Part shown: positions 18,431-24,076 of the stretch, piece after piece
Layout: the number at the start of each line of letters is the position of its first letter
How positions within the stretch are numbered: the first letter of the stretch is position 1
Origin: a virus
Virus record (IMG/VR): IMGVR_UViG_3300045975_000369
Coordinates: 1 to 24,076 of that record
Length of the DNA: 24,076 nt
Strand: one strand, 5' to 3'
The notes under the pieces: generated by a model
What the model was told of the DNA's origin: nothing
What the model saw: only the letters and a program-made list of their open reading frames with translations
Database searches by the model: none
Position numbers and translations under genes: made by a program

Positions 18431-19462
18431 ATGAGTAGAGTTGTGGTATTTGATCTGAATCATCGAGCGGTGGGAGAGTTTAGCGCCATCGTGAACCGAG
18501 GCTATATGATGTATGGCAACCCTTCAGTGAGCGGGGAAGCCAGCACGCAGATCGTCATACCAAACAATGTGGCACGCAAGCCGTGGCTGAACTTCGGGCG
18601 GCCAATATTGATCGAGGGCGGCGGCCTGCCTGCATGGATGGGAATCATCGACCCGCCGTGGAAAGCAGATACGCCCGTCAGCCTGACAGCCTATAGCGGC
18701 GAATACCTACTCTCGCTGCGGGTTCCCGATGTAATCAAATTGCCTGTCAATGGGTCTTCGGAGCAGATCATCAAGGAGCTGATCGCGCAGGCGAACAGTC
18801 AGGCAGATATGTTCATCCGTTTGGGAGATGCCAGCCAAAGCGATGGGGCGACGCGGCAGGAGACCATCACGCAGAAAAAGGTGTGGGAACAGATCCGCGC
18901 GTATTGCGAGCGAACTGAAACTGAGCTGGTCCTGCGCCCTGTCCGCGAGGGCGACCGATTGAACTTATATATCGATATCGGCGCGCAGGGAACAGATACA
19001 GGGATGCTTCTGCATGACGGCGAGAATGCCAATATGCGCATCACTAACGCGACGGTGATCGGCGATCTGACCAACCGATTGACGGGCATCAGCAGTCAGA
19101 GCACAACATCGAGCCGCCTGGCAACGGAGCCCTATCTGAACGATGAAACCGTGGATCTGTATCGTTTGCGCAGCGACGTGGCCCAATTCAGGGACATCAG
19201 CGAGATCACAACACTACAGAAACATACGGAACGGGAGCTGGACTGGCTCTCGAGGCCGAGGCTGCAGATCACGGCAGACATCATTATCAAAGACGCGAAC
19301 CTGGCGCGCAACATGCGGCTGGGCAATACGTTCATGGTGCACGCATCGAAGATCCTTTTGCCAGGCGGCAGGCAGGGCTGGCGGGGAACGATGCGCGTTC
19401 CGAAGTTTTTCTTCACTGAGAGCACGAACACAGTAAACATAACAATGGAGGCTTTCTTATGA
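18431..19462 (+). CDS. tail hub / ReqiPepy6 gp37-like tail protein
   Basis: The 343-residue protein resembles siphovirus tail proteins of the ReqiPepy6 gp37-like group, hub proteins at the tail tip. It starts 'MSRVVVFDLNHRAVGEFSAI', has 'GRPILIEGGGLPAWMGIIDP' and 'AYSGEYLLSLRVPD' in the first third, a helical linker 'GSSEQIIKELIAQANSQ', then 'KKVWEQIRAYCERTETELVL' and 'RLNLYIDIG', and ends with 'LGNTFMVHASKILLPGGRQG' followed by strands. These are the fold marks of the gp27-type hub with two barrel-like domains. AGGA at 18418-18421 is the ribosome site. Its stop overlaps the next ATG (ATGA). Confidence 0.82.
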   Translation: MSRVVVFDLNHRAVGEFSAIVNRGYMMYGNPSVSGEASTQIVIPNNVARKPWLNFGRPILIEGGGLPAWMGIIDPPWKADTPVSLTAYSGEYLLSLRVPDVIKLPVNGSSEQIIKELIAQANSQADMFIRLGDASQSDGATRQETITQKKVWEQIRAYCERTETELVLRPVREGDRLNLYIDIGAQGTDTGMLLHDGENANMRITNATVIGDLTNRLTGISSQSTTSSRLATEPYLNDETVDLYRLRSDVAQFRDISEITTLQKHTERELDWLSRPRLQITADIIIKDANLARNMRLGNTFMVHASKILLPGGRQGWRGTMRVPKFFFTESTNTVNITMEAFL

Positions 19463-20757
19463 CAGCAGGTGATTTCAACAAACAAACCGATCCGAGTGAT
19501 CTGCGGAACGTGGTCTATGCTATGGACCAGCGGCTGAAGGCACTGGAGCGTTCGGTGCTGGACCTGAACCGCATCGACGAGATCGCGCAGGAGGCAGGCA
19601 ATCTCCTGCGCGCAGATGGTGTAGGCATCGACACGTATGGATCGGTCATGAACCTGAACTCATTTGCCACGACCAACGGCGAAGTATTGTCCGATTACAT
19701 CCCCATTCCTTCCCATATCATCCCGATGGGAGGACGGTTGGAGATCCGCTTGACTGGAACGATCGTAAACAATTCGGGTGCTACCCGCACGTTTTGGATT
19801 AATGCGAGCCCATCATTGAACGGCACCAACACATTTTCAATGACCGACGTGCACAGCGTGGGCGAGGCTTCGATATCGGTGACGAGCAGCGCTTCGATCA
19901 GGATGTGGGAATATATTCTGCGCATCACGCGCGCGGGAGATCTAGATCCCGAGCGGATGATCTTCGACGAAACGCTGGTGGTGGACGGGACGATAGCGAA
20001 TCGATCAACACTATTCGATTGTGGTTCTAATCTGGATACATTGGACGAGATCACCCACCTACTCTTTTCAGCAGGATCGAACGCAGCCAATCCGATCCTT
20101 TTGATCATTGTGAATACATTGGGCATCCAATCTCTGCAGGAGGTGAACGCGCCTTCTCAACGCTGGCTCTCAATCTCAGCGGATAATAAATATGACACAT
20201 TCATCCGCAGTACCACTCCCACCAACAATTTTGGAACTGCAAATATCCTGGTCGGTGAATCGAACGCGGCAGTGGGACAGGTCAACCGCGGACTGATTCA
20301 TTTCCCTGCATTGGACTACCTGGTCGCAACGTATCCGAACGCAGTCGTTCTGGATGCGCGTTTGAGCCTGACAATGATCACCGATCTGTCGGACAATGCG
20401 CGGACAATGCGCGTCTATCCGATCCTGGTCAGCTGGTCGGAACTAGGCGCGACCTGGAACACGCGCGACGGCTCAACGGCCTGGAGCGCGCCAGGGCTGG
20501 GCTCGGGGACCGATCGGGGCGCCACGCAGCTTGGTCAATATGTGTTCGATGCGGCAGAAGCTATTAATCAAAAAAAGATAGTCACGCTTTCCGCCACCGA
20601 AATGCAGAAATATTTCACGGGCGAGTATGCCAATTATGGCTTCCTGTTGCAGATGGACACCGAGACCAACGATGCGTACAGCTTCAGCCCGGCAGACAGC
20701 GCCTATGAAGATTCGCCCGTACTGTATATCCGATTCTCGCTGCCTGCGGAGGTCTAA
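19459..20757 (+). CDS. tail fibre / receptor-binding protein with DNRLRE-type domain
   Basis: The 432-residue protein begins with a short helical stretch ('ALERSVLDLNRIDEIAQEAG') that could mount on the hub, followed by a beta domain (residues about 60-210). The C-terminal 195 residues carry the DNRLRE/CBM96-like pattern: 'KYDTFIRSTTPTNNFGTANI', 'NRGLIHFPALDYLVATYP', 'ARLSLTMIT', 'SWSELGATWNTRDGSTAW' and 'DSPVLYIRFSLPAEV'. Such domains occur in secreted and surface-binding proteins and bind polysaccharide in some cases. Coupling to the hub gene by ATGA supports a tail-tip role. The true ligand is unknown. Confidence 0.78.
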   Translation: MTAGDFNKQTDPSDLRNVVYAMDQRLKALERSVLDLNRIDEIAQEAGNLLRADGVGIDTYGSVMNLNSFATTNGEVLSDYIPIPSHIIPMGGRLEIRLTGTIVNNSGATRTFWINASPSLNGTNTFSMTDVHSVGEASISVTSSASIRMWEYILRITRAGDLDPERMIFDETLVVDGTIANRSTLFDCGSNLDTLDEITHLLFSAGSNAANPILLIIVNTLGIQSLQEVNAPSQRWLSISADNKYDTFIRSTTPTNNFGTANILVGESNAAVGQVNRGLIHFPALDYLVATYPNAVVLDARLSLTMITDLSDNARTMRVYPILVSWSELGATWNTRDGSTAWSAPGLGSGTDRGATQLGQYVFDAAEAINQKKIVTLSATEMQKYFTGEYANYGFLLQMDTETNDAYSFSPADSAYEDSPVLYIRFSLPAEV

Positions 20758-20762
20758 CTACC

Positions 20763-21833
20763 ATGAACCGCAAGATCGCTTCCGCTTCGCACAATCTCTA
20801 TTATTTCGTCAACGGCACTGAGGTCATCACGCCGCGGGCGCATGGGATCGATCTCAGCAAATACGACCTGTCGTTCTATCCAGAGACCGCCACGGGGCAA
20901 CTGGATTTTGTCTTTCAGCGTGTTTCGTATCGGGTGACGCGGGATGAGGCCTTCGAGGCCCTCCTGCCCGGGGTGCTCAAGGTGCCCATCCGTATGGGAT
21001 ATCACTACCTGGCGACCGATCACACCTGGCGTGAACAGGCGGACAAGTACCTGCAATGCATCAAGGGCGTGCCCTATCATGCGCATGTGTGCGATTTTGA
21101 AACCGCCTTTAACACGGTCAACATGGAGTTCGTGCGTTCGACCTGGAACTGGATCGACTACGTGGCGCAGAGAACGGGGCAGCCGACCCTGCTATATACG
21201 AACTACAGCCTGTACGGCACGTGGATCTACCCCAGCGAAAAGCAGTTCGGCATTGATTGGGACAAGGTCCCATTCTGGCAGGCGCAATACCTGTTCACGC
21301 CCGACCCGAACAAGAACCCCTCCACGCCGACAGGCCGAACGAACCCGTGGAAGTTCTGGCAATACACTGAAACAGGCAATGGTTATCAGTATGGCACCGG
21401 CCGACCGAAGGCCCTGGATCTGGATGTCTTCAACGGCACGGTGACCGATCTCAAACAGTTTCTGGGCATCGACGACGGGACGGTCCCGCCGACCGACCCA
21501 CCCCCCACTGGAGGAACCATGAAAAAAGGAACTTTGAAAACGGGCACCAGCGCCCTGAACGTGCGATCGGGACCCAGCCAATCCTATCCCGTGATCACCG
21601 TGCTCTATACAGGGGATACGGTCTACGGCCTGCTGGAGGCCTCGGGTTGGCTGAACGCCCAGAAGATCGTGCGGAAATCGGGCGCGACTGAGACCCTGAA
21701 CGGATACTGCAACGCTTCCTATTTGGATCTGAGCGACGTGCCCGACCCCTCGAACGGCGCCTACCCCATGAGCGTTTCGGTGGAAACGGATACGCATCAC
21801 GGCTCGGGCGAACTGACGATGACGCCAAACTGA
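20763..21833 (+). CDS. endolysin: GH25 muramidase plus C-terminal SH3b wall-binding domain
   Basis: The enzyme cleaves the MurNAc-GlcNAc bond of peptidoglycan at the end of infection. The 356-residue protein has a GH25 domain (about residues 20-225) with 'HGIDLSKYD' (D30), 'LDFVFQR', 'IRMGYHYLA', the catalytic D-x-E in 'HVCDFETAF' (D111, E113) and the closing 'FWQYTETG' and 'ALDLDVFNG'. A proline-rich linker ('VPPTDPPPTGG') leads to an SH3b domain starting 'ALNVRSGPSQSYPVITVLY'. No signal peptide is visible, so a holin should release it. A strong internal start at 21519 is annotated separately. Confidence 0.92.
   Translation: MNRKIASASHNLYYFVNGTEVITPRAHGIDLSKYDLSFYPETATGQLDFVFQRVSYRVTRDEAFEALLPGVLKVPIRMGYHYLATDHTWREQADKYLQCIKGVPYHAHVCDFETAFNTVNMEFVRSTWNWIDYVAQRTGQPTLLYTNYSLYGTWIYPSEKQFGIDWDKVPFWQAQYLFTPDPNKNPSTPTGRTNPWKFWQYTETGNGYQYGTGRPKALDLDVFNGTVTDLKQFLGIDDGTVPPTDPPPTGGTMKKGTLKTGTSALNVRSGPSQSYPVITVLYTGDTVYGLLEASGWLNAQKIVRKSGATETLNGYCNASYLDLSDVPDPSNGAYPMSVSVETDTHHGSGELTMTPN
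21510..21521 (+). promoter_or_regulatory. internal ribosome site and start codon inside the endolysin gene
   Basis: GGAGGAA (21510-21516) is followed after two more bases by ATG (21519-21521), in frame with the endolysin (codon 253) and exactly between the proline linker and the SH3b domain. It is stronger than the ribosome site of the full-length gene. It looks like an internal translation start. Confidence 0.7.
21519..21833 (+). CDS. predicted separate SH3b wall-binding subunit of the endolysin
   Basis: Translation from the internal ATG would give a 104-residue protein, 'MKKGTLKTGTSALNVRSGPS' onward, containing the whole SH3b domain and the C-terminal tail but no enzyme part. Several characterised endolysins make such a wall-binding subunit from an in-frame start and assemble it with the full-length enzyme to improve binding. 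Here the evidence is the strong ribosome site, the correct frame and the exact domain boundary; production is inferred. Confidence 0.55.
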   Translation: MKKGTLKTGTSALNVRSGPSQSYPVITVLYTGDTVYGLLEASGWLNAQKIVRKSGATETLNGYCNASYLDLSDVPDPSNGAYPMSVSVETDTHHGSGELTMTPN

Positions 21834-22912: not shown

Positions 22913-24076
22913 TTATTCCTGCCAGACGAAGCGGATGTCATTTTTGGTGAGGACGATCTTTTGGATGAGGGCGGCGAGGAGCTGGTTGATACGGACTGGG
23001 TCATCGTTCTTGATGAGGGCAGGAAGATGGCGAAGGACTTTTTGGAGATCGCCCAGGCGCTGTTTCCATTCGGCCCTGGTGCGTTCGTGATCCTGAGCCT
23101 GTTCGATGCTTCGCGAAATTCTGGCGGCGTCCGCTTCGAGCTTGCTGAGTTTGGCCGAGGCCTCAGCTGAAGTGTAGAGTCCGCTTTCGTAGCCGTCGTG
23201 GATGCGGGCGCGGCGCGAGGCGATGGCATCGAGTCTGGTTTTGAGCGGGGTGATATCGACAGGGCGGACGGGCATGGATTGGGCGCGCTTGAGTTCATCG
23301 ACCAGGGCGTTTGAGATGTAATCGATGGCAGCGTCATATCGCATACACCAGTGACTGGATTTTTCACAGCCATAATATTTGAACTCTTCCCTGCCGTGCC
23401 TGTGGATCCTGCCGCCGCAGACGCCGCAGACAGTGAGGCCCGTAAAAGGGTAGCGGGCATTGTAGTTGCGTTTGCCTTCGAGGCGGCGGGATGCTTCAGC
23501 CAAAATGGCGTAATGAGTGGCTTCATCCCAGAGCGGTACATGTTTGCCGTGTTCGACCTGCCATTGAGAGGGCGGCGCGGGGACACGCTTTTTGTGTTTG
23601 CCGATCGAGACAATGCCGGCATTATATTCGCTGGTGAGCATTTGCTTGATGACCTGGCCCTGCCAGTATTTGCCGCGGGCGGGGCGAAGGATCTTATCGG
23701 AGCGGCGGGCAATTTCGGCATAGGAAAGACCCGAGAGCATCCAGTCTTTCATTTGGACGAGGAGCGCGGCGCGTTCGGGGATCTGTTCGGCGGGCTGACC
23801 TTTTGCAGTGGCTTGATAGGCATAGTTGAGGGAAAGAGGATGGAGTCCCCTTTCAACACGGGCGGGCACTCCGGTCTTCCAGGCGCGACGGAGTTTATTG
23901 AGACGGTAGGCTGTCAGGATGGCTTCAACGTGCATGTCGATGTCGGTGGATTCGTCGCGGTGCGGGTCGTATTGATCGGCGGGGATGACGGAGCCTGACT
24001 GGCGGGCGGAGACCAGCTGGGCATTATGTTTTTTGAAGCGGGTGCTGAGCATGGGGGCGATATCGCCGAGACGGTC
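22913..24076 (-). CDS. large serine recombinase (phage integrase), N-terminus outside the window
   Basis: The gene runs off the right edge: the frame is open to 24076 without a start codon being needed, giving 387 visible residues. An ATG at 24052-24050 is in frame, but the bases before it still translate as 'DRLGDIAP', as expected for the tail of a resolvase catalytic domain, so it is not the start. The visible part has a recombinase domain ('RGLHPLSLNYAY', 'AEIARRSDKIL', 'YWQGQVIKQMLTSEYNAGIV'), a zinc ribbon ('GLTVCGVCGGRIHRHGREEF' then C and C), a coiled-coil arm ('ASAKLSKLEADAARISRSIE') and a C-terminal 'QLLAALIQKIVLTKNDIRF'. Large serine recombinases integrate phage DNA between attP and attB. 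The catalytic serine lies outside. Confidence 0.9.
   Translation of the reverse strand, partial: DRLGDIAPMLSTRFKKHNAQLVSARQSGSVIPADQYDPHRDESTDIDMHVEAILTAYRLNKLRRAWKTGVPARVERGLHPLSLNYAYQATAKGQPAEQIPERAALLVQMKDWMLSGLSYAEIARRSDKILRPARGKYWQGQVIKQMLTSEYNAGIVSIGKHKKRVPAPPSQWQVEHGKHVPLWDEATHYAILAEASRRLEGKRNYNARYPFTGLTVCGVCGGRIHRHGREEFKYYGCEKSSHWCMRYDAAIDYISNALVDELKRAQSMPVRPVDITPLKTRLDAIASRRARIHDGYESGLYTSAEASAKLSKLEADAARISRSIEQAQDHERTRAEWKQRLGDLQKVLRHLPALIKNDDPVRINQLLAALIQKIVLTKNDIRFVWQE

Follow-up and report, generated by a model that had tools for sequence, protein, structure and literature searches.

From a single reading frame, the lysin gene of an uncultivated phage very probably gives rise to two polypeptides: the full-length lysin and its SH3b tail alone, with the short chain likely joining the full-length one. 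Two products are considered very probable because relatives of the lysin keep the inner ribosome site while the linker around it changes, and because other relatives encode the tail as a separate gene.

Genomic Setting and Domains of the Lysin

The stretch of DNA analysed, called the window here, is the 24,076 nt of IMG/VR record IMGVR_UViG_3300045975_000369. This 24 kb record encodes a terminase, an HK97-type capsid, tail genes and a serine recombinase. The terminase shares 63% identity with one from a Candidatus Villigracilaceae MAG, and because of that resemblance, the host group is probably Anaerolineales (Chloroflexota); the nearest relatives have hosts in this order, in the Villigracilaceae. 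The anti-Shine–Dalgarno sequence CCTCC is found in the family Villigracilaceae. The serine recombinase (22913–24052, minus strand; PF07508, PF13408) lies close to the end of the record, which suggests a temperate phage.

The lysin gene occupies 20763–21833 and has 356 codons; it and its parts given below are on the plus strand. It comes after the tail-region genes; Pfam found no tail domain within the ORF, and no adjacent holin was identified. The protein encoded just before it (19459–20757) matches CBM96 and disaggregatase-related repeats and is perhaps a tail-tip carbohydrate binder. In the single lysin ORF, Pfam recognises a catalytic domain, PF01183, and a wall-binding domain, PF08239, one of each. 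The first is a GH25 muramidase domain (20841–21467; E 3.4e-12, 47.5 bits against a cut-off of 27), for which the profile, the fold seen by Foldseek and the acidic catalytic residues all agree; D30, D111/E113 and D219 are invariant in the alignment of relatives. The second is an SH3_3 domain (21549–21728; E 1.5e-8 on the whole protein). When the predicted short product is searched by itself, the SH3_3 match improves to E 1.6e-9, with 38.2 bits against a cut-off of 27 and 54 of 54 profile positions covered by residues 11–70. The two domains are joined by a proline-rich linker of residues 236–252 (21468–21518). An AlphaFold2 model, whose confidence in the SH3 part is low, has pLDDT below 50 at residues 239–253, indicating disorder, and opens the C-terminal part with a strand at 253–258. 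After the SH3_3 domain is a C-terminal beta-strand tail (21750–21830), which alignments show in the relatives too, with strands at 334–341 and 346–353 modelled at low confidence. The best structural match to the whole model is the phiSM101 endolysin (PDB 4krt), a GH25 plus SH3 enzyme; the identity is 16%, and the catalytic domain matches it alone too. The matches to the GH25 part include CTP1L (5a6s).

A Predicted Internal Start at the Border of the Wall-Binding Domain

The first-pass annotation had called attention to GGAGGA and an in-frame ATG at codon 253, at the border of the linker and the SH3b domain. This is borne out by the sequence, the Pfam borders and the disorder in the AlphaFold2 model. 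The Shine–Dalgarno sequence (21510–21515) is spelled by linker codons for Thr-Gly-Gly-Thr, and the ATG (21519–21521) follows GGAGG at a short spacing of four bases (AACC). The reading frame from there to the stop (21519–21833) would give a 104-residue SH3b wall-binding subunit. Pfam's GH25 match stops at residue 206 and its SH3_3 match starts at residue 263, which is residue 11 of that short product.

The annotation had also rated the internal site above the main start, and this depends on what is counted. By Shine–Dalgarno pairing alone it does not hold: the main start has GGAGGT (20748–20753) 9 nt before its ATG, with an energy of −10.2 kcal/mol, slightly stronger than the −9.3 kcal/mol of the internal site. 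It does hold when spacing and local mRNA folding are included, the total energy being 0.2 kcal/mol for the internal start and 4.9 for the main one in a simplified RBS-calculator model that is parameterised for E. coli and leaves transcript ends out of account. Initiation at the main start could be higher than modelled if translation is coupled to that of the upstream gene. Among the 19 internal in-frame starts of the gene, the one at 21519 ranks first and carries the best internal Shine–Dalgarno sequence; the next has a total of 10.3 kcal/mol. In-frame ATGs with a Shine–Dalgarno energy of −7.3 kcal/mol or better have a background frequency of 9.7e-4 per codon (34 of 35,148 codons), or about 3% per 30-codon linker.

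Internal starts at 2.0 kcal/mol or below are found 7 times among 1542 in other ORFs of these phages. Three of the seven are within 27 codons of the start of the ORF, and those are probably the true starts of ORFs annotated too long. Two more are one and the same site in the near-identical contigs L002 and L006, where it marks the border between a ClpP-like protease and the scaffold-like part that follows; a similar protease/scaffold border site in L003 scores 2.1 kcal/mol. The ORFs in question encode ClpP-like prohead proteases (L006 13763–14959, with its counterpart in L002, and L003 16195–17508), with the strong in-frame starts CAAGGAGCAAATATTATG and ACAGGAGATTCAAATATG before the scaffold-like part. 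Nested protease and scaffold genes are known in phages, as in C and Nu3 of lambda. Since the border starts resemble such nested genes, they serve as a positive control for the energy scan.

Fused Relatives Keep the Border Start

Members of the lysin family were gathered from IMG/VR and from Villigracilaceae genomes by searching with profiles. Counting the window, there are eight distinct fused ORFs: the window lysin, L035/L036 (the same as L042/L043), L112, L113, L114, L037, L226 and L241. All eight have a strong Shine–Dalgarno sequence and an ATG bordering the C-terminal domain. The site reads GGAGG-CAGT-ATG in L035/L036, GAGGAGATACCAAAC-ATG in L112, AGGAGAGGACGAC-ATG in L114 and ACAGGAGAGTCAGGC-ATG in L241. 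In L113, it is AAAGGAGTCAAAT-ATG and comes after an intervening NAGPA domain; L037 has the same architecture, with AGGAGATCAAGAT-ATG. L226 (808–1872) is a chromosomal NAGPA-SH3 gene without GH25, and its site, AGAAGGAGGCAGC-ATG, lies ahead of the SH3-like domain and belongs to an internal start that is very strong (GAAGGAGGCAGCATG). In each fused ORF, the border site is the top internal in-frame start, ranking first of 19 in the window and then first of 23, 22, 35, 8, 55 and 20. L241 was met after this rule was set and fits it, with a border ATG at 1.8 kcal/mol and the next internal start at 10.2.

The peptide in which the site is written is not the same in these proteins. The four residues before the methionine are TGGT in the window, NGGS in L035/L036, EIPN in L112, KESN in L113, GDQD in L037, GEDD in L114, EGGS in L226 and GESG in L241. 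About half of the GH25 residues differ between the window and L035, while the GGAGG and its spacing are unchanged. All the GH25-SH3 fusions, at 50–58% GH25 identity, retain a Shine–Dalgarno sequence of working strength and the ATG. The three NAGPA-SH3 ORFs (L113, L037 and L226) are colinear across both domains at 29–34% identity and keep the site with different bases and different peptides.

Outside this group, the site is rare. In a sample of 62 GH25 lysins with a tail, a strong linker start after GH25 is present in five of six close relatives and in 1 of 56 distant lysins (Fisher p 5e-6, a value that ignores relatedness). The sixth close relative, L113, has its site at the later domain border, after NAGPA. 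The one distant exception, L127 (2498–3304), is a GH25 lysin whose frame continues into a C-terminal part that is transmembrane and holin-like; AAAGGAGAATGTT-ATG (AAAGGAG) falls exactly at the border, and L127 is a possible nested lysin–holin gene. The 54%-identical lysin L174, which lacks a wall-binding domain, has no such internal site, and the border start is likewise absent from the LysM-type GH25 lysins of Anaerolineales genomes and from the SH3 lysins L118/L123, L119/L120, L125 and L128, which served as a negative comparison. L133 and L062 also carry a Shine–Dalgarno sequence and an ATG; they were left uncounted because these fall within a domain. A different arrangement is seen in L082 (1448–3180), where two GH25 lysin genes (283 and 294 codons) stand in tandem; both the length of their polyproline stretches and a short helical tail, which replaces the SH3b, set them apart. 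A search for close relatives of the lysin alone gave none in the viral or genome contigs scanned and one weak match, at 27% identity, in phage records. The check that had been proposed, whether the internal ribosome site is retained among relatives to a degree that coding needs alone would not require, thus comes out positive, given the eight fused ORFs with their varied linkers and the near absence from distant GH25 lysins.

It could be argued that the linker hinge needs codons for Gly-Gly and Met and that the look of a ribosome site is accidental. Synonymous recoding gives the argument some room: 28% of the synonymous recodings of the window site match its Shine–Dalgarno strength. Recoding yields an equally strong site in 13–28% of cases for five of six lysins and in 2% for the sixth (combined p 0.02), and every one of the six exceeds the average strength of its own recodings. 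Because recodings so often equal the strength of the real site, the signal is mostly in the choice of amino acids and the methionine and weakly in silent sites, and we do not build the case on a silent-site test this weak. If selection on the internal site is real, it acts jointly on the peptide and the codons. The predictions of Pinto et al. also put sites of this kind in 15% of portal genes, a false-positive background. An accident should nevertheless not follow the domain border while the linker peptide differs from relative to relative, nor be confined to so few of the distant lysins, and homologues of the domain begin as genes at the same methionine (see below). We therefore regard chance as very improbable.

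The Same Domain as a Separate Gene

In L085 and L087, a GH25 gene is followed by a gene for an SH3-like protein of 121–122 residues whose ATG overlaps the preceding stop codon as ATGA. The SH3-like domain profile matches in 32 of 152 Villigracilaceae genomes. Where a GH25 gene lies upstream (22 Villigracilaceae loci), the junction is an ATGA overlap in 19, ten of them located by script and the others from locus coordinates; in the remaining three, 9 to about 100 bases separate the genes. The Shine–Dalgarno sequence of the second gene is nearly always of the AGGAG type and lies inside the end of the GH25 gene; in L203/L204, it is GCGAGGT. Comparing profiles relates the window-type domain to this stand-alone family (E 2e-6, probability 89.5%). 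The internal methionines of L113, L037 and L226 align with the start codon of the stand-alone SH3-like genes within 1–2 alignment columns, and therefore the same subunit is encoded as a free polypeptide in sister systems. Many Villigracilaceae genomes carry such pairs, with the ATGA overlap, on the chromosome (L205–L225). The neighbours of L206 do not look phage-like, so the chromosomal pairs may be domesticated lysins or wall enzymes of the host.

The split pairs also open a way to see the internal site as a relic. A small frame change may have joined a GH25 gene to the SH3b gene downstream of it, leaving the ribosome-binding site and ATG as an unused scar that is read as linker codons. With an ATGA overlap, fusion is an easy step, and the scar of such a fusion would resemble the window site. 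A DNA scan of IMG/VR for the protein motif PPTGGTM found no lysins but two ordinary gene starts, so that elsewhere this motif is the read-through of an ordinary start. Against this stands the retention of the Shine–Dalgarno sequence and ATG in all of the colinear NAGPA-SH3 and GH25-SH3 fusions described above. At such distances, an unused scar would be expected to decay, unless every fusion were recent and independent. We consider an unused relic improbable, and a start still in use the better account of the site.

For the Anaerolineales phages and their hosts taken together, we lean slightly toward a general statement: GH25 and NAGPA enzymes would form a two-subunit system in which the SH3-type binding subunit is always translated separately, either from an overlapping gene or from an internal start. 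Switches from one form to the other, split or fused, would have occurred among lineages, with the dosage of the binding subunit kept independent.

Comparison to Known Two-Polypeptide Lysins

The window lysin agrees with the single-gene, two-polypeptide type represented by CTP1L, Lys170 and LysIME-EF1 in its domains, in a border start above background and in the retention of that start in relatives. CTP1L-like genes mostly carry GGAGG in the linker, and an in-frame internal start yields the wall-binding domain separately (PMC4777826). The Clostridium phage lysins CTP1L, CD27L and CS74L share with the window the in-frame internal start with a Shine–Dalgarno sequence in the linker; they differ in having another wall-binding domain and hosts in the phylum Bacillota, and the CTP1L start is GTG. 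The short product and the complex of CTP1L were shown experimentally (PMC4777826), whereas the window lysin is known from its sequence. LysIME-EF1 and Lys170, from Enterococcus phages, are like the window lysin in being single genes with an internal ribosome-binding site but serve other hosts. Their short wall-binding and full-length chains form a 1:3 assembly (PMC7098653, PMC9430671); for the window lysin, such assembly would be by analogy. PMC9430671 also describes LysP7951, with the same gene arrangement and a 1:5 complex, and predicts that about half of the endolysins of Gram-positive phages have such internal starts, against 15% for portal genes. The set surveyed was cultured Gram-positive and mycobacterial phages, not those of Chloroflexota, and the sections consulted do not describe split-gene homologues (PMC9430671). 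The Staphylococcus phage lysin Ply2638A likewise has an internal start that gives a short SH3b-containing isoform, but there the start precedes the second catalytic domain rather than the SH3b alone. When both isoforms are made, phage 2638A releases progeny faster and lyses its host in a timely way (PMC12203907).

Initiation at 20763 would give the 356-residue GH25-SH3b lysin. The GGAGGA at 21510 would recruit ribosomes to the ATG at 21519 and give the 104-residue SH3b alone. That this internal start is translated, with the free domain probably in excess, is a prediction from the comparison with relatives that we hold with high confidence. The free SH3b may then join the full-length lysin through SH3b–SH3b or linker contacts, adding wall-binding units and raising avidity. 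We favor this second step with moderate confidence because CTP1L, Lys170/LysIME-EF1 and LysP7951 assemble in that way.

The short chain might instead be made and act free, without a complex, as a wall binder or as a competitor that limits the activity or diffusion of the lysin. Such a role is possible because some two-isoform lysins form no complex: LysJavan488 has two isoforms without a detected interaction, so complex formation is not universal in the family (PMC9430671), and CTP1L is repressed by added CBD (PMC4777826). For lysins that have one catalytic domain and a start just before the wall-binding domain, which is the arrangement in the window, complexes are what has been reported. We therefore think a purely free role unlikely, though less so than either chance or a relic, and prefer assembly with the full-length lysin.

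Implications

The single-gene, two-polypeptide endolysin is an already known arrangement, extended here to phages of Chloroflexota. What is new is its conservation in uncultivated Chloroflexota phages, its occurrence after an additional enzyme domain (NAGPA) and the existence of split-gene homologues encoding the subunit alone. In an incomplete coverage of the literature, we found nothing on internal starts in metagenomic endolysins, nor in the titles of articles on Chloroflexi endolysins. Codon-optimised recombinant versions of such lysins may miss a subunit. The finding carries the single-gene, two-polypeptide strategy into phages of uncultivated Chloroflexota, where a separate gene for the same domain in sister systems is natural evidence for use of the short chain. 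The split and fused homologues together provide a handle on why phages keep the dosage of a wall-binding subunit independent.
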